NCBI RefSeq assembly: GCF_000769115.1
Contig: NZ_JQZV01000003.1
Location: forward strand, 1 to 64,000
From: Porphyromonas canoris
GTDB taxonomy: Bacteria; Bacteroidota; Bacteroidia; Bacteroidales; Porphyromonadaceae
Direction of reading: 5' to 3'
DNA length: 64,000 bases
Below the pieces are notes generated by a model. It made no database searches, was not told the DNA's origin, and was given only the letters and a program-made list of their open reading frames with translations. Shown one piece after another: positions 23,561 through 38,122 of this stretch (position 1 is its first letter; each line of letters starts with the position of its first letter). The position numbers and the translations under genes were made by a program.

Positions 23561-23592
23561 TTACGCTCACAAACGAGCATCAAATAAACAGT

Positions 23593-23632
23593 AAATAGCA
23601 GTAAGATAATAACTTACTGCTATTTTTATTTT
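23593..23632 (+). terminator. Terminator after dnaK
   Basis: A 13-bp perfect stem AAATAGCAGTAAG (23593-23605) with 23613-23625, then a T-rich tract. Confidence 0.85.
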
Positions 23633-23675
23633 CTAGAGTTTCTCGTATTTCTTCGTTTTCTATCGATTTTAGTCG

Positions 23676-23683
23676 TATATTTG
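23676..23683 (+). promoter_or_regulatory. Promoter -7 box at the left end of the island
   Basis: TATATTTG, 88 nt before the HTH gene at 23771. It overlaps the 13-base sequence that recurs at 37146. Confidence 0.45.
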
Positions 23684-23770
23684 TACCATATTTGTGCCGC
23701 GACTTATTAGTGTATAAAGTGCGACTTAAATAAAAATATAAATTGATTATCAGATAGATAAGAAAAGCGT

Positions 23771-24325
23771 ATGCCAGCTGCAAAATTTCAGATTGAGCGA
23801 AAGTGCGAATTGTGTGGGAAGACCTTTCTAGCCAAGACAATCACATCAAGGTATTGTTCTATACAATGCTCAAGGTCTGCGTATTCACAAAAGAAGCGAG
23901 AGGAAAAGTTAGAAGAGCTACGGAGAGAGAAGGCTGCAAAGGTTCCCAAGGATCAACCTTACCTCTCTATCCCTGATGCTATTGCTTTATATGACGTTTG
24001 CAGAGATACACTATATCGACTCGTCAGAAGTAAGGCTCTCCGAAGTTATAACTTGGGAAAAAGGATGACTCGTATCTGTAAAGAAGATTTAGAACGCAAC
24101 TTTAATCTGAGGCCTATTGATGAGCAAAAGGCGAGAAGAAGAAATGAGGCTAAGCTTTACAACCTTGAACCCGAGTATTGTTACACAATTGGTGAAATAA
24201 CAGCCAAGTTTGGTGTCACGGAAGGGACGGTATATAAGCATATCAGAAAGTTTTCCATCCCCATAAGGCAGATTGGCAATTATGTCTATGCCCCAAAGTC
24301 AGAGATAGACCAACTCTACAAATAA
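23771..24325 (+). CDS. Zinc-finger/double-HTH regulator of the mobile element
   Basis: A 184-aa protein. The N-terminus has a probable zinc ribbon with CELC and, after 15 residues, CSIQC (about 13-33). Two excisionase/MerR-like helix-turn-helix segments follow: one around YLSIPDAIALYDVCRDTLYRLVRS and a second around YTIGEITAKFGVTEGTVYKHIRK, each ending in a wing (GKRMTRICKEDLER; GNYVYAPKSEIDQL). Proteins of this kind sit just before the recombinase in Bacteroides mobilizable elements and probably act as DNA-bending or recombination-directionality factors. The gap to the integrase is 12 nt, so they are co-transcribed. Its DNA target is unknown. Confidence 0.75.
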   Translation: MPAAKFQIERKCELCGKTFLAKTITSRYCSIQCSRSAYSQKKREEKLEELRREKAAKVPKDQPYLSIPDAIALYDVCRDTLYRLVRSKALRSYNLGKRMTRICKEDLERNFNLRPIDEQKARRRNEAKLYNLEPEYCYTIGEITAKFGVTEGTVYKHIRKFSIPIRQIGNYVYAPKSEIDQLYK

Positions 24326-24337
24326 CCTTAGATACAC

Positions 24338-25600
24338 ATGAGAAAAGAATTACACAACACGAAAGTAACTGTGAGACTTCGCAAGAGTGCATATAGAAAT
24401 GAGTGGTATCTCTACATTGAGAGTTATCCAGTCTATACTGCGGGCAAATCCGAACCACAACGTGTCCGTGAGTATCTCAACCGCATAGTAACTACGGTAG
24501 TCTGGGATAAAACTCGGACTGCACGCACAACATCTTCGAGCAAATCGTACAAACCCAAGCGAGATTTGAATGGAGTGATACAGTGCAAAAGTGAGGTCGA
24601 TCAAGAAGCTTGTATCTATGCCGATGAGGTGCGAAAGCTCCGTCAAAGAGAATACGATAATGCCGATTTGTACAGTGATACAGATACGGCACAGGCGGAG
24701 CAAAAGGAACGTTTGCAACAAAACTTCATTGGCTATTTTCGAGAGGCGATGTACAAGCGACACAAAAATAGCTCCACTTCTATTCTTGTCAATTGGAAGA
24801 GAGCTCTGGATTTTCTTAAAATGTATGCTGGGGACAATTTGCCGTTTTTCAAAATCGACAATGCTTTTGCAGAGGAATACAAACGATTCCTTTTAACAGC
24901 ACCTCGTGGAGGAAATAAATGTGGTACTATTTCTCACAATACGGCATCCACTTATTTTTCTATTTTCAAGGCAGCTCTCAAACAGGCATTTATAGATGGT
25001 TATCTGACCGTTGATATATCCGCCAAAATAAAAGGTATTCAGGAACAGGAGTCTCGCCGTGAATACCTTACCGTAGAGGAGTTAAATACGCTTGCTTCAA
25101 CTCCTTGTGATCGTGAGGTGATGAAACGGGCAGCTCTTTTCTCTGCTCTGACAGGATTACGCCACTGTGATATTCAGAAACTAAAGTGGAAAGAGATCAA
25201 CATGGATGGAGAACAGCCGAGGTTACATTTCACTCAAAAGAAAACCAAGGGGGTGGAGTATATGCCTATTTCGGAACAAGCCTTACAACTATGTGGAGAA
25301 CCAAGATTGCCAGAACAACTGGTTTTTGAAGACTTACCTAATCCGTCATGGATTTCTAAACCTCTAAAGCGTTGGATAGAGGCTGCAGGCATCAAAAAGT
25401 CCATAAGCTTTCATTGCTTCCGCCACTCCTACGCGACTCTACAACTTGCCAGCGGTACAGACATTTATACCGTAAGCAAGATGCTGGGACACACGAATGT
25501 GAAGACAACGCAAATCTATGCAAAGGTGGTCGATGAAAAGAAAAACAAGGCGGCTCAAGCCATAAAATTGGATACGATAGAGACAAAGAGTCAGGAATAA
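24338..25600 (+). CDS. Tyrosine recombinase / integrase
   Basis: This site-specific recombinase (420 aa) integrates and excises the element. It has an N-terminal Arm-binding-like domain (about 1-110), a SAM-like core-binding domain (about 125-235) and a catalytic domain. The catalytic set is visible: Arg275 (TGLRHCD), a Lys in TQKKTKGVEY, His359 and Arg362 (HCFRHSYA), His385 (LGHTNVKTTQ) and the nucleophile Tyr394. All key residues are intact, so it is probably active. No tRNA gene is nearby to serve as a target. Confidence 0.92.
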   Translation: MRKELHNTKVTVRLRKSAYRNEWYLYIESYPVYTAGKSEPQRVREYLNRIVTTVVWDKTRTARTTSSSKSYKPKRDLNGVIQCKSEVDQEACIYADEVRKLRQREYDNADLYSDTDTAQAEQKERLQQNFIGYFREAMYKRHKNSSTSILVNWKRALDFLKMYAGDNLPFFKIDNAFAEEYKRFLLTAPRGGNKCGTISHNTASTYFSIFKAALKQAFIDGYLTVDISAKIKGIQEQESRREYLTVEELNTLASTPCDREVMKRAALFSALTGLRHCDIQKLKWKEINMDGEQPRLHFTQKKTKGVEYMPISEQALQLCGEPRLPEQLVFEDLPNPSWISKPLKRWIEAAGIKKSISFHCFRHSYATLQLASGTDIYTVSKMLGHTNVKTTQIYAKVVDEKKNKAAQAIKLDTIETKSQE

Positions 25601-25620
25601 CCTCACAAAAATGAATAAAG

Positions 25621-26328
25621 ATGCAGTCTAAGTACTTTGAATATATAATTGTTTATTTATCCGTCTTGCTGGCGTGTGCCTTAATTGGTATAATTGTGAG
25701 ATTTGTTTTTGTCTCGGCTGGAGTTGACGAATTTACTGCAACCGTAATTTTCTGGATTGTTACAGGTGTAGGTATCATTCTCTATTCAGCCCTGATGCTT
25801 CTGATTGACGGCTTGCTCACCGCTATTGTGAAGAAGTTTTTCCCTCGCAAGTATTCTCCATCATCACTTCGAAAAAAGAGAGAAGTTGAGCAGAATTGGG
25901 ACAAAAAGAGTATAGAGACTGAATTTATTCAGGAGATACGAGTTAGCCAACAGCGTAAACAAAGCGATAAATCAAAAGAGAAGTTGGAGATAGCCATCTC
26001 CTATACACAGCATGAATTTGCCCCTTATGTCTCTGATGACGATTTGATACAACTTTGTCAACACATTACAGCTTATTCAGAAGGAAATGTCTTACAAAAC
26101 CCTCAACCCGTCAGGGTCACAAAACTTACTTCTTTAGACCTGTATCATTTCGGCTGGAATATTTGGAAGCATTTCAGTATCGGCAAACAAGACGAGGTTG
26201 CTCTTTTCCTCAAACTTGTTTTTGCCGAAGCACTAAGAGACGTTGAACCAGAGACCATCAAAAGCCACCTCAAAGACGATGAACAAAAAGGGCTAATCAA
26301 GATTCAGAAGTGTCTTACGCTTCTTTGA
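25621..26328 (+). CDS. Two-helix membrane protein of the mobile element, unknown function
   Basis: A 235-aa protein that I do not recognise by function. Two hydrophobic segments lie near the N-terminus (about 8-30, IIVYLSVLLACALIGIIVRF; and 40-66, with IFWIVTGVGIILYSALM). A charged, probably coiled region (about 75-125) and a soluble C-terminal domain (SDDDLIQLCQHI, FGWNIWKHFSIG) follow. It begins 20 nt after the integrase stop and shares its direction, so it probably travels with the recombination module. The C-terminus could sense or contact another element protein; nothing in the sequence shows this. Confidence 0.6.
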   Translation: MQSKYFEYIIVYLSVLLACALIGIIVRFVFVSAGVDEFTATVIFWIVTGVGIILYSALMLLIDGLLTAIVKKFFPRKYSPSSLRKKREVEQNWDKKSIETEFIQEIRVSQQRKQSDKSKEKLEIAISYTQHEFAPYVSDDDLIQLCQHITAYSEGNVLQNPQPVRVTKLTSLDLYHFGWNIWKHFSIGKQDEVALFLKLVFAEALRDVEPETIKSHLKDDEQKGLIKIQKCLTLL

Positions 26329-26380
26329 ATAAATGAGGAGAACGATAATAAAAACTTCCAAATAGCAGATTCTTTCTGCA

Positions 26381-27178
26381 TTATTCTAAATGCATATCCG
26401 TTCTAGATTTTATCTCTTCAGCGATGTCTGATCTATTAGTTTTGATCCACCTATCAAATGCGACTTGAATAAATGGAGCTACCCGATACTGCGACTCTTC
26501 GTCGGGCTCCAATCCTAAATCCAGACTATCTGTATAGTCAGATGCCATCATATAGTGGTTGTTAAAATAGAAAAGATAGGCAAAGTGTTGAACAAAAACT
26601 GCTGTTAAATCATTCAAGAAAATATCTAATGCTTTAACACGATGGGGTAGATATAACTTTTTGTCATTCAGAAGAATATTGTTGTAGTAATTGTAATGAG
26701 TATGATCATTACAGCGTTCCCTAATTTCTTTGTAAAATCTGTCTTTTGAGAGCAATTCCGTTATGGGCTTTAGCTTGTCTGAGTTTTTGATATATTGAGA
26801 CATTATTCGAAAGGAGGGCAATTTCTCTGTGCCTTTTCTCCAATTATCAATACGTTCAACAATGAAGTTGTTGATGCTAAAATGATCCCTTAAATAAACA
26901 TTTGTGTAAACATTAATTATGGTTGCATCATAGTATTTCCTGAGCAAAGAGTATCCATCATTAATACTCCCATTGGCCAACACCATCTTTATAGAGTCAA
27001 GAGTGCTACCTATTGAGCTAAATACGTAAGTATCCAGATTCAGAAAAGCTCTAGTTCCCTGACTCACAAACATCATTATACTATAGGATAAAGATCGATA
27101 AAACTCCGAAAAATCAGAGAGTTCTTCAAAAACTTTATGATTCTTATACTCAATCTCAAGTTGATCAAATTCGTTCAT
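26381..27178 (-). CDS. Unknown cargo protein with a possible HEPN-type Rx5H motif
   Basis: This 265-aa protein is on the opposite strand to its neighbours, between the recombination and replication/mobilization genes, a typical cargo slot. It is mostly helical and rich in Tyr, Phe and Asn, with no signal or clear membrane helix. RERCNDHTHYN (around residue 150) contains Arg-x5-His spacings that fit the HEPN ribonuclease motif (Rx4-6H); this is a weak, short match. HEPN proteins are common in toxin and abortive-infection systems, which would fit a cargo gene, but I cannot confirm the fold. AT-rich composition suggests separate acquisition. Confidence 0.5.
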   Translation of the reverse strand: MNEFDQLEIEYKNHKVFEELSDFSEFYRSLSYSIMMFVSQGTRAFLNLDTYVFSSIGSTLDSIKMVLANGSINDGYSLLRKYYDATIINVYTNVYLRDHFSINNFIVERIDNWRKGTEKLPSFRIMSQYIKNSDKLKPITELLSKDRFYKEIRERCNDHTHYNYYNNILLNDKKLYLPHRVKALDIFLNDLTAVFVQHFAYLFYFNNHYMMASDYTDSLDLGLEPDEESQYRVAPFIQVAFDRWIKTNRSDIAEEIKSRTDMHLE

Positions 27179-27374
27179 ATAAACTCCGTTTATTTGCTAC
27201 TTATTATTTTCTGAATAGGGTTTACATCTCAACAGACTTCAACCTTTTCATCCCTCAATTGTAATTATAAACAAAATTACAATATCTATGATACAAACTT
27301 TGGGTTGGAAAAAACTTTTATAACTTCTCTTTGTCTTAGTAAATAGGAAAACGCACGAATCATAGTGTTTTTGT

Positions 27375-27412
27375 AGTGTTTTCTCCGTGTTTTGAATCAC
27401 AGGGAAAACACT
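27375..27412. promoter_or_regulatory. Dyad upstream of the excisionase-like gene
   Basis: AGTGTTTTCTCCGTG (27375-27389) and CACAGGGAAAACACT (27398-27412) pair at 13 of 15 positions with an 8-nt centre, 41 nt before the gene at 27453. It is a plausible operator or an excision-protein binding site. The 27179-27452 gap holds nothing else clear. Confidence 0.4.
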
Positions 27413-27452
27413 TTATTCATTTGTGCCATGTTAAACTCAAAATAGTATAAAC

Positions 27453-27809
27453 ATGGACAACAACGAAATTTCTTTTGAGAATCTACCTAAGGCGGTAGCT
27501 CACTTAGTGAACGAAGTAGCTGAGATCAAAGCCTTGGTCGAGAAAGGGCAAGATGCGGTTATTTCTCCAAAACGTATTCCTATCGGGATAAATGAGGCGT
27601 GTAAAATCATCGGGAAGGCCAAGCCTACAATTTATACGCTTGTGCGTAAGCGTTTGCTTCCTTGCTACAAGAACGGAAAGCAACTCTACTTCTTCGAGGA
27701 CGAGTTGCTCGAATGGATAGCTAATGGTCGTAGAAAAACTGTGCGAGAACTTGCCGAAGACTCAAAGCTCTTTATCTCTGAAAAGAAGGCCAAGCTCTCT
27801 CATTTCTAA
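27453..27809 (+). CDS. Excisionase-family helix-turn-helix protein
   Basis: A 118-aa DNA-binding protein. After a helical N-terminus (about 1-40, AVAHLVNEVAEIKALVEKGQ) comes an excisionase/MerR-like winged HTH: IPIGINEACKIIGKAKPTIY as helix-turn-helix and CYKNGKQLYFFEDELLEWI as wing and last helix. Bacteroides elements carry such proteins before the VapE and primase genes, where they act as excision factors or regulators. The ATPase gene begins 13 nt after the stop, so the two are probably one transcript. Confidence 0.75.
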   Translation: MDNNEISFENLPKAVAHLVNEVAEIKALVEKGQDAVISPKRIPIGINEACKIIGKAKPTIYTLVRKRLLPCYKNGKQLYFFEDELLEWIANGRRKTVRELAEDSKLFISEKKAKLSHF

Positions 27810-27822
27810 TATCTATTCAACG

Positions 27823-29028
27823 ATGAAAGAAGAAATGGATGAACGACCAGAAGGGAAGCAATCCAAGAATGAACGGATAGAGTCCTTTCTAAGGGAGCAC
27901 TATGACTTTCGATTCAACACCGTAAAAAGTCGCACGGAGTTTCGATACTCGAATAAAGAAGCACTTTTCTACCCGCTCGGTAAATTCGATATCAACTCCA
28001 TGCGACGGCTATTGGATTCTTCACAAGGTATCAGTACTTCGGCAGAGAATATACGAGCGATATTGGAAAGTGATTTCTGTCCGCGTATCAATCCTGTACA
28101 GGAGTATTTCCAAAAACTATCGAAGTGGAACGAGGGAGAGGATTCGGAGATTATTCACTTGGCTTCGTGCGTAACGGTTCGGAATCCTGAGAAGTGGCAA
28201 ACCTACTTGACCAAATGGCTTATTGCAGTGGTGGCGAATGCGATGGATGATTTATTCTGTCGCAATCACACCTGTCTGGTTTTGACTGGAGAGCAGGGTA
28301 AGTTTAAGACCACTTTCTTAGACTTGCTTTGTCCCGTGGAGCTAAAAGCATATTTGTTTACGGGTACTATTGACCCTCAAAACAAGGATACGCAGACCCT
28401 TATAGCCGAATACCTGTTTATCAATATCGACGACCAACTCAAAGCCCTCAACAAAAGAGACGAAAATGAGTTGAAGAATCTCATAACAACTCCACGGGTT
28501 AAGTATCGCAGACCATACGATACGTACATCGAAGAGTATCCTCACTTAGCCAGTTTTATGGCTTCGGTAAATGGTAATGACTTCCTTACGGATCCGACGG
28601 GTAGTCGTCGGTTTCTTCCTTTTGAAGTAGAAGCTATTGACATAGAAGCTGCTAAACAGGTCAATATCAATAAGGTTTATTCGGAGGCTTGGTGGTATTG
28701 GGAAAGTGGATATCGGTACTGGTTTGATGATGCTGAGATTGCAGAGTTGCACCGAGAGAGCGAAGGCTTTCATGTGCAGACAGTCGAATACGAAATGTTG
28801 CTCAAAGGCTTTGAGAAACCAAGTCCTACGGAAGAATCTTATATGACTACTTCGGAAGTCCTGAATTATTTGCGTGGATACACTACGCTGAACCTCTCTG
28901 AAAAACGAATGGGAGAAGCTCTGCGCAAAGCAGGATTTGAACGAAAGTCTCGACGGATAGGAGGTAACCCTATGTATGTTTATCATATCAGGAAAGTCTT
29001 CCCGAATCCGTTCGTGAGTTCCTTTTGA
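27823..29028 (+). CDS. VapE/VirE-family P-loop ATPase
   Basis: This protein (401 aa from the ATG at 27823; an ATG at 27835 is also possible) belongs to the VapE (virulence-associated E) family, helicase-like ATPases often paired with primases in phages and mobile elements. The P-loop is GEQGKFKTT (156-164), and a Walker B-like YLFINIDDQ follows. FMASVNGNDFLTDPTGSRRF holds the sensor and arginine-finger region typical of the family. The C-terminus (about 345-400) is a small winged-helix-like part. It probably unwinds or loads DNA during element replication with the primase encoded downstream. Longer readings begin inside the preceding gene and are not used. Confidence 0.82.
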   Translation: MKEEMDERPEGKQSKNERIESFLREHYDFRFNTVKSRTEFRYSNKEALFYPLGKFDINSMRRLLDSSQGISTSAENIRAILESDFCPRINPVQEYFQKLSKWNEGEDSEIIHLASCVTVRNPEKWQTYLTKWLIAVVANAMDDLFCRNHTCLVLTGEQGKFKTTFLDLLCPVELKAYLFTGTIDPQNKDTQTLIAEYLFINIDDQLKALNKRDENELKNLITTPRVKYRRPYDTYIEEYPHLASFMASVNGNDFLTDPTGSRRFLPFEVEAIDIEAAKQVNINKVYSEAWWYWESGYRYWFDDAEIAELHRESEGFHVQTVEYEMLLKGFEKPSPTEESYMTTSEVLNYLRGYTTLNLSEKRMGEALRKAGFERKSRRIGGNPMYVYHIRKVFPNPFVSSF

Positions 29029-29074
29029 CCTATTGATAAATTACAGTTACTACTTACTACAAGAGATACTAATC

Positions 29075-29196
29075 CAGTGAAAGAAAAAAGATTGAGCGTG
29101 TAGTATGGTTTTATAATCTGTCTTACAACAGAGTTACTACTCGCACCGATGATACTACTACAAGAAAACAGGTTACGACTCTTTTTCTTTTCACTG
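29075..29196. repeat. Spaced inverted repeat between the ATPase and primase genes
   Basis: CAGTGAAAGAAAAAAG (29075-29090) is the near-complement (15 of 16) of 29181-29196. Between the arms short direct repeats occur (GTTACTACT at 29046 and 29132; ACTACAAGA near 29056 and 29157). The 227-bp gap lies between replication genes, so an origin or regulatory region is possible. Confidence 0.4.
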
Positions 29197-29255
29197 TGAA
29201 AGAGTTATCCATCCATATTCATGTAGTAAGGAAAATCTCCAAAACTTAGAAAAAC

Positions 29256-30146
29256 ATGATGAATATTGAACATATAAAATCCTTATCTCTGAAGGATTAT
29301 TTGGCTAATAAAGGCCATTACCCAGTGAAGGAGTATACGACTTATGGAATGTATAGAAGTCCTTTTCGGGAAGAGAGTAGCCCCAGTTTCAAGGTCGATT
29401 ACAGAGCAAGTCTCTGGTATGACTTTGGAAGCGGTGAAGGTGGCAGCATAATTGATTTGGTAATGAAACTACATGGCTGCACACTGTCTCAAGCAATTGG
29501 ACTTTTAGAAGACCGTGTAGAGATTAGCCCTCTTATGCAGAATGACTTTGACCGACAGGCTGAGAGTGGCGAAGAGATGAAAATAATCGAAGCCGCCTCT
29601 TTGCATCATCCTAATTTGCTGAGATATCTACAAGACCGTAAGATTGATTGTTCTGTGGCGAAACGATACTGTCGTGAGATTCACTATCAAGTAAAAGGGC
29701 GTACTTATTACGCTATCGGAATGCCTAACGACTTGGGAGGTTATGCCATTCGTAATCTCTATTTCAAAGGCTGTTTACCTCCTTCCAGTATCTCCTCCTT
29801 TGATCGAAATACGGATACTATCAATCTCTTTGAAGGATTTATAGATTACTTGAGTTTTTGTACCCTTTATCCTGACAGAAATACTGAATCTGCGATTGTA
29901 CTGAACTCTGTAAACAATCTCCAAAAGGCTCATTCCTTACTCTCGAAATATGCCATTGTTAACGCTTATCTCGATAACGATGCAGCAGGAAAGAAAACGC
30001 TTGAAGTGCTTTGGAGAATGAATCTTCGCGTTAATGATTGCTCCATCCTTTATGAGGGACATAAGGACTTGAATGATTTTCTCTGTCGAAAAAATCAAGA
30101 ACTCATTTCTCCTCCGAGAATGAAAAGTCGGGGACTCAAACGATGA
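29256..30146 (+). CDS. DnaG-like Toprim primase of the mobile element
   Basis: A 296-aa primase-like protein. The N-terminus resembles the CHC2 zinc-binding domain of DnaG in layout (SPFREESSPSFKVDY, then WYDFGSGEGGSIIDLVMKLH) but the zinc cysteines and histidine are missing. The Toprim half shows LFEGFIDYLSF with Glu193 and LDNDAAGKK with Asp240 and Asp242, the metal-binding acidic residues. It probably primes replication of the excised circle together with the VapE ATPase. The start is MM at 29256 or 29259. mobC follows after a dyad-rich gap. Confidence 0.82.
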   Translation: MMNIEHIKSLSLKDYLANKGHYPVKEYTTYGMYRSPFREESSPSFKVDYRASLWYDFGSGEGGSIIDLVMKLHGCTLSQAIGLLEDRVEISPLMQNDFDRQAESGEEMKIIEAASLHHPNLLRYLQDRKIDCSVAKRYCREIHYQVKGRTYYAIGMPNDLGGYAIRNLYFKGCLPPSSISSFDRNTDTINLFEGFIDYLSFCTLYPDRNTESAIVLNSVNNLQKAHSLLSKYAIVNAYLDNDAAGKKTLEVLWRMNLRVNDCSILYEGHKDLNDFLCRKNQELISPPRMKSRGLKR

Positions 30147-30155
30147 ATGGGTATG

Positions 30156-30233
30156 GAGTCAAGCCCTTTGCTTATTAGAGGAGCAAGTTTGTGTTTTGGT
30201 CAGACCAAAACCTTGCTCTTCGAGGATTGACTC
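30156..30233. repeat. Nested inverted repeats upstream of mobC, candidate oriT
   Basis: Three concentric dyads share one centre region: GAGTCAA (30156-30162) with TTGACTC (30227-30233); GAGCAAG (30181-30187) with CTTGCTC (30212-30218); and GTTTTGGTC (30193-30201) with GACCAAAAC (30203-30211), separated by one base. It lies 42 nt before the mobC ATG, the usual place for a transfer origin. It could also serve as an operator or as the primase terminator. Confidence 0.5.
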
Positions 30234-30274
30234 ATCCCGTTGGTCTATTCATAAATCAAAAAACAAATGCAGTA

Positions 30275-30637
30275 ATGAAGACAATAGAAAATCGTAATAC
30301 GAACGATCGCCCACCCAAACGACCGGTAGAAAAGAAGAAATATAAGGTTACACTGAAAATGGCAACCGAGGAGTTCTACTCTCTGAAAGCTAAAGCACGT
30401 CTTGCTGGGATTACCCGAAGTGAATACATCCGTCGTTGTATCGCTGCGAGTATCGTCAGGCAGAGGCTGTCTCCCGAATTGATGAATCACCTTCGTCAGC
30501 TAAGTGGAATGGCCAATAATGTCAATCAGATTGCCCACAAAGCCAATGCTATGGGATACGCACGAGTCTATCAAGACAACCTTGTGATGACTGAGAGATT
30601 GGACAATATCATAAAACGAATCGAAGATGATTGCTAA
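30275..30637 (+). CDS. MobC-type mobilization accessory protein
   Basis: A 120-aa basic protein. The N-terminal half has a ribbon-helix-helix-like segment (YKVTLKMATEEFYSLKAKAR, then GITRSEYIRRCI). The C-terminal half has the MobC pattern RQLSGMANNVNQIAHKANAM. MobC proteins bind near the nick site and help the relaxase open oriT. The ATG at 30275 is chosen; an earlier ATG at 30191 would lie inside the dyad. The 3' end overlaps the relaxase start by 11 nt, showing translational coupling. Confidence 0.8.
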   Translation: MKTIENRNTNDRPPKRPVEKKKYKVTLKMATEEFYSLKAKARLAGITRSEYIRRCIAASIVRQRLSPELMNHLRQLSGMANNVNQIAHKANAMGYARVYQDNLVMTERLDNIIKRIEDDC

Positions 30638-31568
30638 GATTGTTCAGGGGAGAGGATTTCGAGGGGTGATAAACTATGTTTTGGAGAAAGAGCGTGCTCA
30701 GCTCTTGCAGGCGGAAGGCATTCGTCTGAAAGATAGAGAAGCTATAATCCGAAGCTTTATTACTCAAAGTAAACTTAATCCCAAGATTACGAAACCTGTA
30801 GCCCACATCTCTTTGGATTTTTCAGCCCAAGATAAGGCGCATTTAACGGATGCTTTTATGGTCAAGGTGGCACAGGAATATTTACAGAAAATGGGCTACT
30901 CCAACACGCAGTATCTTATTGCTCGTCATCACGATACAGACCATCCACACATACACATGGTAATCAATCGTATTGATAACGATGGTCGAAGAATTTCAGA
31001 TCAAAATGAAAAACTACGTAGCACAAAGGTCTGCATGGAACTGACTAAGAAATACGGATTATATATTGCTTCTGGAAAAGAGAATGTCAAGCGTGAACGG
31101 CTGAAAGGGAACGACAAAACCAAATATGAGATTTACGATGCTCTCAAAAAAGCTATTCCTCAAAGTTTGACGTGGGGACAGTTGCAAGCAACCCTAAAGC
31201 AATCAGGTATAGGCTTGGAATTCAAGATAAATGGCAATACGTATAAGATTCAGGGCATCATTTTTGAGAAAGATGGTAATCGGATTTCAGGCTCCCATGT
31301 AGATAGAGAATGTAGCTTCTCAAAGATTGACAGGCAGATTAAAGATAATGCCTATCAAGCACTGCAAGTGGCAGAAAAACAAGAGTTCAAAACATCAGAA
31401 ACTGGAGGTGTGATGGATGCTCTTGATTCTCTTATTGGGCAACTCAGCATTTTCTCACTTTTTGATAGCCCTCATTATGATGCGACACTTGCCGAATACA
31501 TTCAGGCTCTGAAAGCCCGAAAGTTGGCGGCTAAAAGCAAAATCAGAATACGCAGAGTACTGCACTAA
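30627..31568 (+). CDS. MobA/VirD2-like relaxase (MOBP type)
   Basis: This relaxase has 313 aa and nicks oriT to start mobilization. A probable nucleophile is Tyr17 (GVINYVLEKE). The three-histidine metal motif is clear in RHHDTDHPHIHMVINR (His106, His108, His110). The C-terminal part (about 160-313) has no helicase or primase domain, so it is a short Bacteroides-type relaxase. It overlaps mobC by 11 nt. No coupling protein or type IV secretion genes are present, so the element is mobilizable rather than self-transmissible. Confidence 0.9.
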   Translation: MIAKIVQGRGFRGVINYVLEKERAQLLQAEGIRLKDREAIIRSFITQSKLNPKITKPVAHISLDFSAQDKAHLTDAFMVKVAQEYLQKMGYSNTQYLIARHHDTDHPHIHMVINRIDNDGRRISDQNEKLRSTKVCMELTKKYGLYIASGKENVKRERLKGNDKTKYEIYDALKKAIPQSLTWGQLQATLKQSGIGLEFKINGNTYKIQGIIFEKDGNRISGSHVDRECSFSKIDRQIKDNAYQALQVAEKQEFKTSETGGVMDALDSLIGQLSIFSLFDSPHYDATLAEYIQALKARKLAAKSKIRIRRVLH

Positions 31569-31593
31569 TGTTTAATCACAAAAGAAAAAGTAT

Positions 31594-32316
31594 ATGTACA
31601 CAGATAGAATAGATACTTCGGCCGTATATGGTCTGTTTGAGGAATTGAAGCAAAGTCTTACGGAAATGGCTTCCTCCTTAAAGGGAAGATCTGAACAACA
31701 AACGATCGACTTGAGTAAAATCGAAGAGCTTCTCGGGAAGATGAATACACTTTCAAAGCAAGAGGTGTTTTCTCCCGAACAAATCAGTGTCTTGGAAGAA
31801 ATACTTACCAAGAGCGTAGTGGCAGGAATGGAAATCGTCTTTGAGAAGTTGGAGGGATGGGATTCAGAGAAAAAAGAGACTCTACAAGCCATTGAGGCGA
31901 AAATTGATGAGATGGGCAAAGAGAGTCGCACTGTCATCCGCAAAGAACATGTTTTTAGTCTTGACTTTAAGAACAGTAAAACGGTTATCACTCTTTGCTG
32001 TATGGGACTTGTTCTTTTGTTTTCTCTGGTTGGAAACTTCTGGCAAATGCGACAAAACGGTAAACTATCGGATAATGATTTGAAGTATCGCTACATCAAA
32101 ATGTATGGAGAAGCCAATCAGGAAAAACTAATGGATTTGGAAACGGTTTTTACTTATCAGAGAGACGAAGAGCAGATTGCTCTCATCCGAGAACAAGTGG
32201 AAACTTACGAACGATTGGTCAAAGAACAGGCAGAAAAGACAGAGCGAGCCCGCCTGAACACATCCCAAGCAAATGAACTTCAGAAGCAGGCAGAGTTCAT
32301 AAAACAACGGAAATAA
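31594..32316 (+). CDS. Coiled-coil membrane protein of the mobilization region, unknown
   Basis: A 240-aa protein. A helical N-terminal half (about 1-115) is followed by one hydrophobic segment (about 129-148, VITLCCMGLVLLFSLVGNFW) and a second long coiled coil (about 175-240, rich in Glu, Gln, Lys and Arg). It lies 25 nt after the relaxase and is closed by a terminator at 32348-32382, so it is the last gene of the mobilization transcript. Proteins of this kind often accompany relaxases in Bacteroides elements; a link to the membrane transfer channel is a guess. Confidence 0.6.
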   Translation: MYTDRIDTSAVYGLFEELKQSLTEMASSLKGRSEQQTIDLSKIEELLGKMNTLSKQEVFSPEQISVLEEILTKSVVAGMEIVFEKLEGWDSEKKETLQAIEAKIDEMGKESRTVIRKEHVFSLDFKNSKTVITLCCMGLVLLFSLVGNFWQMRQNGKLSDNDLKYRYIKMYGEANQEKLMDLETVFTYQRDEEQIALIREQVETYERLVKEQAEKTERARLNTSQANELQKQAEFIKQRK

Positions 32317-32347
32317 ATGCTTCTCTTCTACACCCATTAAAAGATTT

Positions 32348-32382
32348 AAGGGAATGAGAAAATAAATCCTCATTCCCTTTTT
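32348..32382 (+). terminator. Terminator ending the mobilization operon
   Basis: AAGGGAATGAG (32348-32358) pairs perfectly with 32369-32379, followed by a T run. Confidence 0.85.
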
Positions 32383-32400
32383 CTATGCTATTTCATTTCA

Positions 32401-32408
32401 TATCTTTG
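32401..32408 (+). promoter_or_regulatory. Promoter -7 box before the short XRE gene
   Basis: TATCTTTG, 25 nt before the ATG at 32434. Confidence 0.5.
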
Positions 32409-32433
32409 CACTATCAAAAGAACATTGAACGCG

Positions 32434-32598
32434 ATGGATAAACCCATGAATCGAATCAAAGAAGTGCTTGAGGAAAAAGGAATTAAGCAAACATGGCTTG
32501 CCGAAAAACTTGGCAAGAGCTTCAGCATTGTCAATGCCTATGTCTGCAACCGACGACAAGAAAATTTCAAAAATTATTTTATCGATTCTAGTTACTGA
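32434..32598 (+). pseudogene. Truncated XRE-family HTH regulator (54 aa)
   Basis: The first 41 residues match the Cro/CI-type HTH of many Bacteroidota regulators (MNRIKEVLEEKGIKQTWLAE, then KLGKSFSIVNAYVCNRRQ). The usual last helices (a stretch like P-x-L-x-x-L-x-x-I-A) are replaced by ENFKNYFIDSSY and a stop. This looks like a 3' deletion or recombination junction, so the protein is probably non-functional or a dominant fragment. It has its own promoter box. It lies exactly where the mobilization module meets the AT-rich cargo, so it may mark the insertion point. The following gap to 32805 shows nothing else. Confidence 0.6.
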
Positions 32599-32805
32599 CA
32601 AATCATAAACTATAGATATAAATAGTTTTAGTATAGATTGATGAATTAATTCTTTATTCGTTCTTTGATTGATTTATTGAATCTGTGATGAGAGTAGAGG
32701 TGAGTAAACAGAGGTAGCTTATCTAGAGATGTTTTTATATCCCGACAAGACATTTAGGGTACTATTCGCTTAAAATATAGTTTCAAAAAGACAGAATTTG
32801 TTTCG

Positions 32806-33879
32806 ATGAAAAATTCAAGAAAATACATATCTATTCAACGGATAAGAATCAGACAAGATAAATTAGAGCGTTTGAGAAGAAAATCTGTTAAAAAGAAACG
32901 ACAAAGAAATATTGATAGCAATGGTAGGAAAAAGGATAAAGAATGGGAAATTAACGAAAGACATTCTTTGTATGGGCATGCTAAGCGAATAGCTGTTTCT
33001 GCAAGACAGAATCTTAGTTTGCTCAAGGACTCAGAAAATGTATTGGATTTTATGAGAAAAATTGAAAACGCAACAGCTAAAAATCAAAAAGTAATTCTTA
33101 CTCTTGACCTCAGGCAAGTTACAAGTATTGATATTGGGGCTATTAGTGTTTTGTTATCTAAAATAAATAAACTAACTCAGAGGAATATACAAGCTATTTG
33201 CAAGTTGCCACAAGACGGTAATTGTAAGAAAATGTTTTTTGAGTCAGGTTTTTCTGATCATATGAGAGATTTGCAAGGAGGGAGAATACTCTACAATAAA
33301 AAAAATAAAAACTTAATGGTAAACCGAGGTTTTGATAAAACGAGCAATCGAGAAATCGGGTTGGCCATTAAAGATTCTGTTAAGTATTTAACAGGGGTTG
33401 AAGATACCTTTAGACCATTATATAGTATAGCTCAAGAAATGTGTGCCAATTCAGTGGAACATGCCAATCGGTACAATAAGAATTGGCTATTTTCCGTTTG
33501 GTACAAGGATGAAGATAATGTTTGCTTCACGATGACTGATATTGGTGAGGGCATTTTGGGAACATTAAAAAGAAAATTTTCTCAAAAAATCAAAGAGCAG
33601 CTTTTGATTGATAATAAAGAAATTTTAAAACGAGCATTTGAGAAAAAGTATACTTCTGTGACCAAGGATGTTAACAGAAATAAGGGGTTGCCGAAAATAA
33701 AGAATATTTCGGATGCGAACTACATTAACAACCTGATTGTTATAACAAACAACGTGTTGATGGATTTCTCTGATAGCACAAATTCAAAAGTCTTAAACCG
33801 AAAGTTCAATGGAACTTTCTATTATTGGGAGCTAAATAAAACATGTATAGAAATATGGAAGAACAGAAAATTTGCATAG
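32806..33879 (+). CDS. STAS-like / GHKL ATPase fusion (switch-type regulator)
   Basis: A 357-aa protein. A very basic N-terminus (about 10-47, many Arg and Lys) could bind nucleic acid or membrane. A STAS-like domain follows (about 75-155; VILTLDLRQVTSIDIGAIS), then a GHKL/HATPase_c domain with N box EMCANSVEHA (Glu211, Asn215), G1 box TDIGEGI (244-250) and G2-like NKGLPKIK (292-299). This is the arrangement of anti-sigma kinase and anti-anti-sigma parts in one chain. It has no receiver or dimerization/phospho-His domain, so it is not a classical sensor kinase. The next gene overlaps its 3' end by 37 nt. AT-rich composition marks it as acquired. Its signal and target are unknown. Confidence 0.75.
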   Translation: MKNSRKYISIQRIRIRQDKLERLRRKSVKKKRQRNIDSNGRKKDKEWEINERHSLYGHAKRIAVSARQNLSLLKDSENVLDFMRKIENATAKNQKVILTLDLRQVTSIDIGAISVLLSKINKLTQRNIQAICKLPQDGNCKKMFFESGFSDHMRDLQGGRILYNKKNKNLMVNRGFDKTSNREIGLAIKDSVKYLTGVEDTFRPLYSIAQEMCANSVEHANRYNKNWLFSVWYKDEDNVCFTMTDIGEGILGTLKRKFSQKIKEQLLIDNKEILKRAFEKKYTSVTKDVNRNKGLPKIKNISDANYINNLIVITNNVLMDFSDSTNSKVLNRKFNGTFYYWELNKTCIEIWKNRKFA

Positions 33880-34295
33880 CCCTAGCTGATTATTCAAAGA
33901 GTCCAGGGCCAAGATATTGTTATCAGGGAGATGATTCTGGTGAAGATTTTTACCACAAGATTCTGAATAAAAAATTCAAAGAGGCCTTTGATAAGAAGCT
34001 AGAACTCGAAGTGAATTTAGATGGTCCTGATGGATATGCCTCATCATTTCTTGACGAAGCATTTGGTAATCTTATTTTTGATTTTGGACAGAAGAATGTG
34101 CAGAGTCACGTAAAAATCATTTCGAATGAGGAGCCTGAATGGATTGAGATGATTGAGAAAGAAACTTTTCCAGAATGGGAGAAACGGCGTAAAGGTAATC
34201 AATCTCCTAAAAAAACTGTTGAGCACGAAGAATGGTGGCGTTTTAACTTTGCAAATAATTCAACAGAGAGACAAAAATGGATAGGCAAGAGCTGA
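33843..34295 (+). CDS. DUF4325 STAS-like protein
   Basis: A 150-aa protein (138 aa if the ATG at 33855 is used). The core matches the STAS-like DUF4325 family: SGEDFYHKIL near 32-41, then a beta strand LELEVNLDGPDG and the signature YASSFLDEAFGNL (65-77), where the SSF Ser is the position expected for a switch phosphosite. A GGGAG at 33827-33831 supports the ATG at 33843. It overlaps the ATPase gene by 37 nt and the next gene by 19 nt, so the three are made together. I infer that the ATPase acts on this protein, as kinases act on STAS partners. Trp residues near the end (EEWWRFNF) may form a binding patch. Confidence 0.75.
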   Translation: MYRNMEEQKICIALADYSKSPGPRYCYQGDDSGEDFYHKILNKKFKEAFDKKLELEVNLDGPDGYASSFLDEAFGNLIFDFGQKNVQSHVKIISNEEPEWIEMIEKETFPEWEKRRKGNQSPKKTVEHEEWWRFNFANNSTERQKWIGKS

Positions 34296-34867
34296 TGTTA
34301 TGCGGGTTGCAAATCTCTGATTGGATTGGGGTCGTAGAAATCATTGTAAGTTCCGCGATTGGCATTTGGGTTGCTATTACCGTACAAAATAATCTCACAA
34401 AAAGCAGGTATTTAAAAGAATACTTTATCAATGAGGTAAAAGACATTAGAGATTTATATAAATCATTTATAAACCGACTTTATAAGAGTGAGATTTCGGC
34501 TATAGATATTAAAGATTGGTTTAAAGTTATGTCTGAGAGGACTCAAAATTTAGATAAGTTCCTTTATGAAGAGTATTGTAAGTTTGATAGTTTTTTGATA
34601 GTTTCTAAACATGCAGAAATTCAGCGCAAAATCACCTCAATGGACGAATTTAACGAGAATTATAAAGAGCCTACAATATCATTTGCAAATTCCTCTAAGA
34701 ACGAAATTCTTAAACTTCATTCTGAATTAAGTTGTGTTTTGACTCAAAGGATTATTGACATAAACTCAGCGAAAAAGCGAAAGAGAAAGAAAAAAAAGCA
34801 TATAAGCGGATCGAAAATCTGCAATGTATTTACTATCCATATTATCAATTTGCATAAAGGGATCTGA
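34277..34867 (+). CDS. Membrane-anchored third component of the STAS/GHKL operon, unknown
   Basis: A 196-aa protein. One hydrophobic helix lies at about 14-37 (SDWIGVVEIIVSSAIGIWVA); a soluble, helical domain (about 45-165) follows, then a lysine/arginine-rich stretch (about 166-175) and a short hydrophobic tail. It overlaps the DUF4325 gene by 19 nt, the tightest sign that it belongs with it. I recognise no enzyme motif. With a regulator pair ahead of it, a membrane effector or sensor role is the simplest reading, but this is inference. The gap to the next gene (34868-34960) holds no clear terminator. Confidence 0.65.
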   Translation: MDRQELMLCGLQISDWIGVVEIIVSSAIGIWVAITVQNNLTKSRYLKEYFINEVKDIRDLYKSFINRLYKSEISAIDIKDWFKVMSERTQNLDKFLYEEYCKFDSFLIVSKHAEIQRKITSMDEFNENYKEPTISFANSSKNEILKLHSELSCVLTQRIIDINSAKKRKRKKKKHISGSKICNVFTIHIINLHKGI

Positions 34868-34960
34868 ATTATCGTCCTTTGTAACCACCCAAATGTAAGG
34901 GTAAAAACAATATTACATGGACAAAAAGAATGACAAAAGTTATAAAATTAGATAATTAAT

Positions 34961-36427
34961 ATGATTGTCTCTAAAGACCTTCTGCAAATGCTTTCAGACA
35001 CTGAGAGCTACAATATCGAGAGGACAGAGTCGACTGGCAATATGGATAAGTTTTGTCAGGCGATATGTGCTTTCTCAAATGATATTTCGGGTAGTGGCAG
35101 GAATGGCTATCTCATTATTGGAGCAAAGGACAATGGAGAGTTGTCAGGTTTGCAGGTTGATGATAAGCTCTTATTGCAGATTGCCAATATTCGGACAGAT
35201 GGCAACATTCTCCCTCAGCCCACCATGACAGTAGAGAAGTTCCATTTTGATGAAGGGGATGTATTGGTGGCAGAAGTCCAGCCCTCAGAATTTCCGCCTG
35301 TACGTTATCGTGGTCGTGTTTGGGTACGTGTCGGTCCTCGGAAGAGCACTGCAACAGAGGCAGAAGAAAAGATACTCACCGAAAGGCGACTCTCCAACGT
35401 TCATACTTTTGATGCTATGCCTTGTTTGGGAACGAGCATTGACGACTTAGATGTATCTCTCATTCGTAAGGAGTTTTTGCCCAAGGCTGTGGCAGAGGAT
35501 GTTCTCGGTGAAGACAAACGAGATATCACGGATCAACTTGCCTCTCTTGGCTTATATGATTTGCGCTATAACTGTCCGACTAATGGGGCTATTGTCCTAT
35601 TTGGAAAGAATCCTGAGCGACACGTACATGGGGCGTATATTCAATATGTTCGCTTCAAGGGTAAGGATCGTGCGGGCGATATTCTCAACGAGCATAAGTT
35701 TAGCGGTAATCTTTGCAAGGTATTGCTTAAGATTGATGCTTTTGTCGAGACAAGTATCTCTCAAAAGCGTCCTATTCCCGTGAGTGTACTTCGGGAAGAA
35801 ACAGTTTCTAAGTACCCATACTGGGCTACTCGAGAGTTGTTGATGAATGCCATTATGCACAGAGATTACGAGGGTAACGCTCCTATTCAGTTTTATGAGT
35901 ACGACGACCGCATCGAGATTCAAAACCCTGGAGGGTTGTACGGCAAGGTCTGTCCTGATAATTTCCCAAATGTTAGCGATTATCGGAATCCCTTTATTGC
36001 CGAAGCAATGAAAGTCTTGGGCTATGTAAACCGATTCAGCCGTGGAGTCTATCGAGTTCAGAAGGAATTGGAAGAAAACGGTAACGGGCAAGCCTCTTTT
36101 GATTTTTCATTGATTACAGCTTTTCGAGTAGTTGAGAACGTTTCTCAAAAGTATTTTGAAGAGGGCTTTGGAGGAGAAACTACCCAAGAAAAGCCCAAGA
36201 AAGGCCCAAGAAAAGCCCAAGAAACATCCAAGAAACATCCAAGAAACATCCAAGAAGAACTATTAGGCATAATCCAAGAAAATCCAGAGATTACACGGAG
36301 AGAAATGGAAATGATACTCGGATGTTCAACGGGTAAAATAAAGTATTACATTGAGAAAATGACCAAGCAAGGTGTCATCAAGCACGAAGGCTCTACAAAG
36401 GCTGGAAAGTGGATAATAATCAAATAA
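34961..36427 (+). CDS. AlbA_2 / RecG-like ATP-binding transcriptional regulator
   Basis: A 488-aa protein. It has an N-terminal AlbA_2 (Schlafen-related) DNA-binding domain (about 10-130; ERTESTGNMDKFCQAICAFS, NGYLIIGAKDNGELSGL, YRGRVWVRVGPRKSTATEAE), a middle GHKL-like domain with RELLMNAIMHRDYEG (Asn296) and IEIQNPGGLYG, and a C-terminal winged helix (about 434-488, TRREMEMILGCSTGKIKYYI). Residues about 408-433 are encoded by seven tandem 11-bp repeats, so copy-number change would shift frame and cut off the winged helix. Such proteins often lie in defence or mobile regions; the regulated genes here are unknown. Confidence 0.8.
   Translation: MIVSKDLLQMLSDTESYNIERTESTGNMDKFCQAICAFSNDISGSGRNGYLIIGAKDNGELSGLQVDDKLLLQIANIRTDGNILPQPTMTVEKFHFDEGDVLVAEVQPSEFPPVRYRGRVWVRVGPRKSTATEAEEKILTERRLSNVHTFDAMPCLGTSIDDLDVSLIRKEFLPKAVAEDVLGEDKRDITDQLASLGLYDLRYNCPTNGAIVLFGKNPERHVHGAYIQYVRFKGKDRAGDILNEHKFSGNLCKVLLKIDAFVETSISQKRPIPVSVLREETVSKYPYWATRELLMNAIMHRDYEGNAPIQFYEYDDRIEIQNPGGLYGKVCPDNFPNVSDYRNPFIAEAMKVLGYVNRFSRGVYRVQKELEENGNGQASFDFSLITAFRVVENVSQKYFEEGFGGETTQEKPKKGPRKAQETSKKHPRNIQEELLGIIQENPEITRREMEMILGCSTGKIKYYIEKMTKQGVIKHEGSTKAGKWIIIK
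36182..36258 (+). repeat. Seven tandem 11-bp repeats inside a coding sequence
   Basis: Units start at 36182, 36193, 36204, 36215, 36226, 36237 and 36248. They read like GCCCAAGAAAA (first four) and ATCCAAGAAAC (last three). The period is not a multiple of three, so gain or loss of one or two units shifts the reading frame. Confidence 0.9.
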
Positions 36428-36430
36428 AAC

Positions 36431-36550
36431 GTGTACATAATATTGAGCAGTCTTTTGTTGCTTGTATTGGTTGTCGTGCTCATAGGAGCAGTCCTTCCGA
36501 GAATCAGAACAGCTACAAAATGGTGTTTTATATACCTTTGTTGTGGTTAA
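36431..36550 (+). CDS. Possible small hydrophobic peptide (39 aa)
   Basis: A GTG-initiated frame just after the AlbA_2 gene gives a hydrophobic stretch (SSLLLLVLVVVLIGAVLP) followed by RIRTATKWCFIYLCCG. It could be a real small membrane protein, the end of a decayed gene or chance. It overlaps the promoter box of the next gene. No homology can be judged from sequence alone. Confidence 0.25.
   Translation: MYIILSSLLLLVLVVVLIGAVLPRIRTATKWCFIYLCCG
36533..36540 (+). promoter_or_regulatory. Promoter -7 box before the first acetyltransferase
   Basis: TACCTTTG fits TAnnTTTG, 47 nt before the ATG at 36588. Confidence 0.5.
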
Positions 36551-36587
36551 ACACTTATCATAGGTTTAAACATATATACTATAGCAA

Positions 36588-37073
36588 ATGTCAAATAATG
36601 CAGTTTTTCGAAGAATGTTCCCTCATGAGTATTGCATGTTGGAGGACTTTTTGTATGAAGCCATTTTCATACCTGAGGGAGTAGAGCCTCCTCCGTATGA
36701 CATTATTTATCTACCAGAGCTATATATGTACATTGAAGACTTTGGGAGTAAAGCTTCAGATCTAGCAGTAGTAGCAGAAGTGGATGGAATCATAATCGGA
36801 GCAGCATGGGCACGTATCATGATGGACTATGGACATATTGATGATCAAACGCCCTCTCTTTCCATCTCACTACATCCAAACTTTAGAGGACAAGGCATCG
36901 GTACAAAACTTTGGAAGACATTACTTGATCATCTCTTTCTGGCTGGTTATCACCAATGTTCTCTATCTGTACAAAAAACAAATTTTGCTACTAAACTGTA
37001 TGTACGCAGTGGATTTTATGTCGTCAAAGAGAATCAAGACGACTATGTAATGGTAAAGAAGCTCAGAGAGTAG
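36588..37073 (+). CDS. GNAT-family N-acetyltransferase
   Basis: A 161-aa acetyl-CoA-dependent acetyltransferase. The acetyl-CoA pyrophosphate loop is PNFRGQGIGTKLW (near 108-120), and the C-terminal motif B region reads NFATKLYVRSGFYVV. The N-terminus (PPPYDIIYLPELYMYIEDFG) is typical of a small GNAT group annotated as acetyltransferases of unknown substrate. It is preceded by its own promoter box and followed by a 67-bp repeat and a strong terminator, so it is a single-gene cassette-like unit. An antibiotic- or metabolite-modifying role is possible but not shown. Confidence 0.8.
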   Translation: MSNNAVFRRMFPHEYCMLEDFLYEAIFIPEGVEPPPYDIIYLPELYMYIEDFGSKASDLAVVAEVDGIIIGAAWARIMMDYGHIDDQTPSLSISLHPNFRGQGIGTKLWKTLLDHLFLAGYHQCSLSVQKTNFATKLYVRSGFYVVKENQDDYVMVKKLRE

Positions 37074-37116
37074 ATAAATCAGAAACACTACTACATTGTC
37101 TACAATATAACCATAA

Positions 37117-37183
37117 CCGATTGTTTGTAATCGATTTCAGAAATCATATTTGTACCATGTGATTGCAATCTGCTGTAAATCAG
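37117..37183. repeat. 67-bp direct repeat, copy A
   Basis: It matches 39572-39638 without gaps at 56 of 67 positions. It contains the palindrome GATTGCAATC and ends in AAATCAG; the outer ends are weak inverted repeats. It begins 44 nt after the acetyltransferase stop. The gap 37074-37567 holds this repeat, a terminator (37234-37274) and a promoter box (37475). Confidence 0.75.
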
Positions 37184-37233
37184 TATAGATTTGTTTTGAA
37201 GAAGTCAAATAAGCATTACATTCTAACATAAGT

Positions 37234-37567: not shown

Positions 37568-38122
37568 ATGGAATTACAAACAGAACATTTAATTTTAAGG
37601 CCATGGCAAGAGAGCGATGCCGAAGATCTTTACAAGTATGCGCAAAACCCTAATGTTGGTCCAATAGCTGGTTGGCCCCCACATACGAGCATAGAGAATA
37701 GTCGTGAGATTATTAAGAGCGTTCTTTTGACTCCTGAAACTTATGCTGTTGTATTGAAAGCGACAGGAGAAGCAGTCGGTAGCGTTGGGTTAATGACGGC
37801 AAGAAGTGAAATTCACTCTGCAAAAATGGCAGATACCGAGTGCGAAATAGGCTTCTGGCTTGGAGAGCCATTTTGGGGACAGGGTTTGATACCCGAAGCT
37901 ATAAATGAGTTACTTCGATATGCTTTTGATGACTTAAAGCAGACTGCCGTTTGGTGCGGTTATTTTGACGGAAATGAAAAATCAAGGCGTGTACAAGAGA
38001 AATGTGGATTTACTTACAGCCACACAGAGCACGACAAAGCAGTTCCATTATTGAATGAATTTCGCACAGAACATTTCACGAAACTCACATTAGACAATTG
38101 GAGAAAAACCAGAAACAGATAA
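37568..38122 (+). CDS. RimJ/RimL-type GNAT acetyltransferase
   Basis: This acetyltransferase (184 aa) belongs to the RimJ/RimL subgroup. It begins with the typical strand TEHLILRPWQESDAEDLY; GFWLGEPFWGQGLIPEAI is the acetyl-CoA loop, and GNEKSRRVQEKCGFTY is the C-terminal motif. Members acetylate protein N-termini or small molecules; the substrate cannot be told. It is transcribed in the same direction as the glycosyltransferase 110 nt downstream, and both lie between two copies of a 67-bp repeat. Confidence 0.85.
   Translation: MELQTEHLILRPWQESDAEDLYKYAQNPNVGPIAGWPPHTSIENSREIIKSVLLTPETYAVVLKATGEAVGSVGLMTARSEIHSAKMADTECEIGFWLGEPFWGQGLIPEAINELLRYAFDDLKQTAVWCGYFDGNEKSRRVQEKCGFTYSHTEHDKAVPLLNEFRTEHFTKLTLDNWRKTRNR

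Follow-up and report, generated by a model that had tools for sequence, protein, structure and literature searches.

A conserved trio of overlapping genes on a Porphyromonas canoris mobile element looks like a membrane-acting relative of the vapKSC phage-protecting toxin switch

Introduction

What might three overlapping genes, encoding a putative STAS–GHKL kinase, a DUF4325 protein and a small membrane protein, do for the mobile element that carries them? The question arises from a 64 000 nt stretch of Porphyromonas canoris DNA (contig NZ_JQZV01000003.1; hereafter the window), for which a first-pass annotation had proposed a partner-switch or ATPase-gated module with a membrane effector, possibly serving phage defence or element maintenance. 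Our analysis supports that proposal. A search of the literature on DUF4325, STAS-like/GHKL phage defence, VapKSC/CapK and antiphage partner switching, supplements and preprints aside, found no paper on this trio.

The mechanism of the vapKSC operon serves as the template for our reading. In the main text of its description (Chambers et al. 2026), vapKSC is a phage-protecting, toxin–antitoxin-like operon in which VapS is the antitoxin and VapC a nuclease; ssDNA activates the kinase, as shown for CapK and proposed for VapK, and the activated kinase phosphorylates its STAS partner, which frees the toxin (PMC13373217). The same text reports that a glutamate mutant of CapS Ser54 is monomeric and loses site binding, and that the operons downstream of capKS vary (PMC13373217). 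It contains neither the name DUF4325 nor the word transmembrane, and its passages on membranes do not concern a variant such as ours (PMC13373217).

Results

The trio with its domains and marked codons, the two repeats, the integrase, the relaxase and the XRE-like ORF lie on the forward strand. The annotated overlaps were reproduced exactly: the kinase gene K (32806–33879, 357 aa; assigned from ORF, Pfam, motifs and predicted fold) overlaps S, which encodes a DUF4325 STAS-like switch protein (33843–34295, 150 aa), by 37 nt, or by 25 nt if S begins at its second ATG (33855), and S overlaps E, encoding a one-helix membrane protein (34277–34867, 196 aa), by 19 nt. The description of these genes as AT-rich held, with a GC content of 0.33–0.35 in the three 1 kb bins of the trio against 0.346 to 0.558 in the remaining bins of the window, but AT-richness is common to some neighbours and is not peculiar to the trio.

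K joins a STAS domain (residues 58–159; 32977–33282; Pfam E 3.4e-5) to a GHKL kinase domain (residues 167–348; 33304–33849), as had been annotated. The HATPase_c_2 match was weak (E 0.012), and the residues of the N box (E211, N215, H219-A220), the G1 box (D245, G247, G249-I250) and the later motifs (T286, R291, G294, G336-T337) were all present, with E211, N215, D245, G294, G336 and T337 invariant across 122 aligned kinases. The ATP site that the annotation had wanted checked in the fold is part of the predicted model, which comprises a STAS domain and a SpoIIAB-like kinase domain; motifs and model together give the Bergerat fold with N, G1 and G2 boxes that defines the GHKL superfamily. The nearest fold by VIA-align was SpoIIAB/RsbW. 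The best Foldseek match of the K model was the SpoIIAA chain of 1tid at E 8.4e-3, and none fell below E 0.001; the domain assignment is drawn from VIA-align, profiles and motifs. Pfam STAS was detected in only 3 of the 122 K proteins, and PDB searches with early profiles of K and S, four rows each, recovered neither STAS nor GHKL proteins. The N-terminal part is basic, with a net charge of +16 within the first 45 aa, and was modelled with helices at 5–34 and 45–56. In a hand alignment to the SpoIIAA motif, Ile110 stands at the SpoIIAA phosphoserine position. A tryptophan in the strand after the N box (W227; 33484–33486) was invariant in 122 of 122 aligned kinases, and CapK has Phe at the aligned position.

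The second protein, S, matched DUF4325 (PF14213) at E 3.4e-13 and carries the annotated SSF signature at residues 67–69. No HTH or wHTH family in Pfam matched it. Residue conservation makes the second serine of the signature, Ser68 (codon 34044–34046), the candidate phosphoserine: it was conserved in 176 of the 178 loci when duplicates are counted, and in 121 of 122 after dereplication. The residue before it was S in 146, T in 22, P in 6 and A in 4 of the 178, that is, S or T in 168. The pattern used for the genome and viral-contig scans described below, FL[ED]ExFG[GN]L, did not include the serine; it did fix its own residues, so their conservation follows from the way the loci were selected.

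A piece of VapS also matched DUF4325 (E 3.1e-15), which places VapS and S in one Pfam family; the assignment of VapS to DUF4325 is from our analysis. With a 15-row profile of S, the top PDB match was the solved antitoxin VapS, at an E value (0.15) that is not significant alone; an earlier four-row profile did not find VapS in the PDB. VapS Ser48 fell one column earlier than Ser68 in the 15-row alignment, on the first S of SSF, and CapS Ser54 aligned with Ser68 in a profile comparison that was not significant overall (probability 0.5 %, E 0.11).

E was correctly foreseen as a protein with one N-terminal membrane helix. Its single hydrophobic stretch (KD19 2.1 from residue 17) corresponds to a helix at about residues 16–35 (34322–34381; hydropathy and model), and the all-helical model (pLDDT 82.3) shows a long helix starting in the membrane followed by three more. 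The helical domain is predicted to be cytosolic; judged by charge, the C-terminal part lay inside in 136 of 178 E proteins, outside in 19 and was undecided in 6. The other 17 had no helix above the cut-off, yet all 17 matched the E family HMM. This HMM matched 171 of the 178, and 53 of 59 sequences outside its training set, which identifies E as one protein family. Thr120 (codon 34634–34636, by alignment) was T in 156 of 178 aligned relatives. Against Pfam, ORF3 had no match up to E 1, no family was matched by more than one of 121 E members, and no PIN family appeared among the matches of the 121-member alignment at E 0.01. Foldseek with the E model found no PDB entry below E 0.001, the weak matches being FAT-like and designed helical bundles. 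A run of eight A lies at 34790–34797, near the 3′ end of ORF3, and the C-terminal tail encoded beyond this run is not clearly matched in the nearest relatives.

The annotation had also suggested asking whether the genes occur together in other genomes. Among 100 related genomes, K of the window matched five, its own included: three others (L002 at 53 % identity, L003 and L004 at 31 % each) carry K, S and the membrane protein in the same order, and L005 holds a distant GHKL–DUF4325 pair cut by a contig end. Across 395 genomes from the phylum, an alignment of K matched 19: five, counting the source genome, along most of its length, and 14 through short, weak matches. Of 295 genomes from the family to which an Erwinia species belongs, 13 had a K-like match at E 0.01, the Erwinia included. 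They yielded four more loci with K, S and a membrane protein whose helix was judged by eye (L197–L200), two of these K matches containing stops, and a CapK/CapS pair (L202); the remaining matches in the family were weaker or partial. As a query, K of the window matched no phage, plasmid or viral contig, and S was the better probe for these. It retrieved seven plasmid and phage records; K lies upstream of S, and a protein with an N-terminal hydrophobic helix downstream, in those of Vibrio, Leptospira, Novosphingobium, a Marinobacter phage and a Helicobacter phage. The Acinetobacter record has a short kinase ORF (172 aa), and in the Pseudomonas plasmid record neither neighbour of S was found.

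When the S alignment was scanned against 84,980 species genomes, 346 stretches were confirmed, and a scan of viral contigs confirmed 228; the best 80 from each collection were fetched, giving 160 DUF4325 loci. K, called as an ORF of at least 250 aa matching an HMM of 11 seeds, stood upstream of S in 144 of the 149 loci with enough DNA; a 120–260 aa protein with an N-terminal hydrophobic helix stood downstream in 138 of 157, and both neighbours were present in 125 of 146. By comparison, 145 of 811 other ORFs of 120–260 aa in the same loci had an N-terminal hydrophobic helix. The trio is a conserved unit. Going by record titles, the hosts include Pseudomonadota, Bacteroidota, Bacillota, Verrucomicrobiota, Deferribacterota, Fibrobacterota and Desulfovibrio, and the plasmid and phage sets add Leptospira and a Helicobacter prophage. 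The family of E stands beside hundreds of candidate loci, 160 of them examined, in many phyla. Two GHKL–DUF4325 pairs of a more VapS-like type (SSSFLNSSIG/SVG), the contig-end pair in L005 (99–1358) and one in L011 (1111–2348), had no membrane gene visible downstream.

The trio sits in a mobile element, as annotated. A tyrosine integrase (24338–25600) and a MobB-like relaxase below the NCBIfam cut-off (30627–31568) are enclosed by a 19 nt direct repeat with one mismatch, for which none was expected by chance, the pattern being taken from the repeat itself. The attL-like copy (23542–23560) is the last 19 bases of dnaK, and the attR-like copy (37194–37212) is followed by a strong hairpin and T run that might be dnaK's own terminator in a displaced position. 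The carrier is probably a 13.65 kb integrative mobilizable element (23542–37212) at the 3′ end of dnaK; it also encodes a VapE-like and a primase-like protein. Its right boundary is unconfirmed, because the related genome G011 has genes of both sides together: a 90 % identical copy of the acetyltransferase to the right of the attR-like repeat (37568–38122) lies there immediately next to a Schlafen gene that resembles the element's own. In the G011 stretch that was read, this copy is not beside dnaK and the repeat is absent. The cut XRE gene reported nearby survives as an ORF (32434–32598) upstream of the trio; its family was judged by eye, and its 54 codons are short for such a regulator, since XRE-type regulators are usually larger. 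Directly after the trio comes a Schlafen-AlbA/RecG-C type gene (34961–36427), within which a tandem repeat (36183–36248) has an 11 nt period, not a multiple of three, and is a possible slippage site.

Neighbours in viral contigs were tallied for 124 of 143 sampled genes at 31 loci (36 of 54 eligible loci sampled, five left out). The commonest matches were repressors (phrog_4, 19 genes; the CI-like phrog_6201, 12; phrog_8, 12; phrog_2328, 10), with terminase and portal families at 4 each; a single gene may match several families in these tallies. A PADLOC test of 36 of the 50 eligible loci among the 80 genome loci showed no gradient between 144 adjoining and 140 farther genes (199 vs 222 families matched), a comparison that counts families rather than genes and, being internal to the same loci, is mute on enrichment. 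Type I restriction-modification genes were in both lists (25 families shown each). The PADLOC library of 2023 matched none of the three trio proteins of the window at E 1; at E 0.01 it also missed all 10 proteins tried from elsewhere, which made up three complete trios and a single kinase from a fourth locus. In a table of a Francisella phage report, a 293 aa protein, a DUF4325 protein and a 125 aa membrane protein follow CI in a row, and the nearest phage relative of the 293 aa protein is in Marinobacter phage AS1 (PMC7924643); this row appears to be another copy of the trio.

In a mean-field DCA of 178 dereplicated trios, strong couplings were more numerous for K–S and S–E than for K–E. Above a z of 3.5, real and shuffled pairings gave 132 vs 12–20 couplings for K–S, 50 vs 9–14 for S–E and 78 vs 2–5 for K–E. 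S columns yield high scores by themselves in shuffled pairings, and the K–E excess over the shuffle is larger still. Covariation was dropped as evidence of contact, as contacts were not separable from shared ancestry.

Discussion

The trio resembles vapKSC in its first two genes, a STAS–GHKL kinase (likened by the predicted fold and motifs of K) and a STAS protein of the DUF4325 family whose conserved Ser/Thr sits in the corresponding loop. It differs in its third gene, a one-helix membrane protein family rather than a PIN nuclease, and in the basic N-terminal part of K. The VapK sequence itself was not found: the VapS piece matched none of 392 genomes and one plasmid locus, where short ORFs are annotated DUF4325. 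A CapK/CapS pair in a genome of the family of the Erwinia species (L202, 1231–2925) has W68 and S54 at the published positions, and its top PDB match is the CapS-type structure 9z71. The K profile aligned with this CapK at an hhalign E of 2.7e-11, beginning after the aromatic ssDNA-contact residue (W68 in CapK, F54 in VapK), so that residue is not placeable on K. The trio shares with CapK/CapS a STAS–GHKL kinase, a STAS partner and an SSF-type serine motif. CapS ends in a wHTH, which the trio lacks: the L202 CapS matched HTH_24 (E 8.6e-6) and ORF2 had no HTH match. CapK begins with an HTH; K of the window matched no HTH family, but the L202 CapK itself matched an HTH model only at E 0.024. The third gene of the trio is one family, whereas post-capKS operons vary in the main text of the vapKSC paper (PMC13373217). 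SpoIIAB/SpoIIAA and RsbW/RsbV share the GHKL kinase fold and STAS-type partner; K differs in having its own STAS domain, and the third protein of the trio in being in the membrane; at a glance, no sigma factor stands beside the trio. In the passages of PMC12894663 on lambda RexAB and RexAB-type systems, prophage genes near a repressor likewise include a membrane protein partner, but the proteins differ: four helices are predicted for the RexB type, the RexA type binds DNA directly, and a kinase switch is not mentioned.

Relative to vapKSC, the trio retains the kinase and its STAS partner and has a membrane protein in place of the toxin; E would then be a membrane-acting output. On balance, we favour a phosphorylation switch with a membrane output that serves phage defence or element guarding. 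By analogy, we infer that in resting cells S would bind the cytosolic part of E and keep it silent. K would be activated by a stress tied to phage attack or to damaged DNA, with ssDNA a possible signal by the precedent of CapK, and would phosphorylate S on Ser68 so that S releases E. Freed E would then act in the inner membrane, where its presumed toxicity would stop growth or block infection. On mobile elements and prophages this may protect the carrier against rival phages and perhaps stabilize the element. The bolder claim, of an unnamed, widespread immune system of prophages and mobile elements in which a STAS–GHKL kinase sensing phage or DNA damage makes a DUF4325 antitoxin let go of a one-helix membrane effector, is a serious possibility that falls a little short of an even prospect.

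The same biochemistry could have been favoured for keeping the element or prophage in place, as an addiction or maintenance module, which would suit the presence of the trio on plasmids, phage records, viral contigs and this integrative element, and the toxin–antitoxin-like character given to vapKSC in its main text (PMC13373217). That text also has vapKSC protecting against a phage, and the frequent repressor neighbours recall prophage defence genes such as the RexAB type in the passages of PMC12894663, so selection for maintenance instead of defence seems unlikely to us. The two roles are compatible. E might otherwise be a sensor or membrane anchor that detects an envelope event and controls K via S, the output of K lying elsewhere; membrane proteins serve as inputs in some partner switches, and a single helix with a predicted cytosolic domain also suits a receptor. 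Homology with vapKSC, however, places the effector third, and no fourth conserved gene was noticed, as an impression rather than a tally; we consider such a role quite unlikely. A transcriptional anti-sigma or CapKS-like switch governing element genes would agree with the SpoIIAB/RsbW-like fold of K, the CapS serine motif in S and the repressor genes frequent in viral contigs. It would leave no role for the membrane partner family that accompanies the K–S pair, and ORF2 lacks the wHTH match seen in the L202 CapS, which makes it very improbable.

If the trio is indeed an immune system of this kind, the CapK/VapK switch would have, besides transcription and RNA cleavage, a third kind of output, comparable in its working to a Rex system gated by phosphorylation. 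One kinase switch with three outputs (repressor, nuclease and membrane protein) would then illustrate how immune modules are rebuilt, and both DUF4325, the Pfam family that includes VapS, and a membrane protein family that Pfam does not model would gain a testable function.

Among the 178 loci, the only S protein without the serine (L101 7968–8309, the same locus as L010) has AAF in place of the motif. The kinase ORF beside it is missing the usual G-T...W motif at its end and stops interrupt the genome match, as though this switch had decayed.
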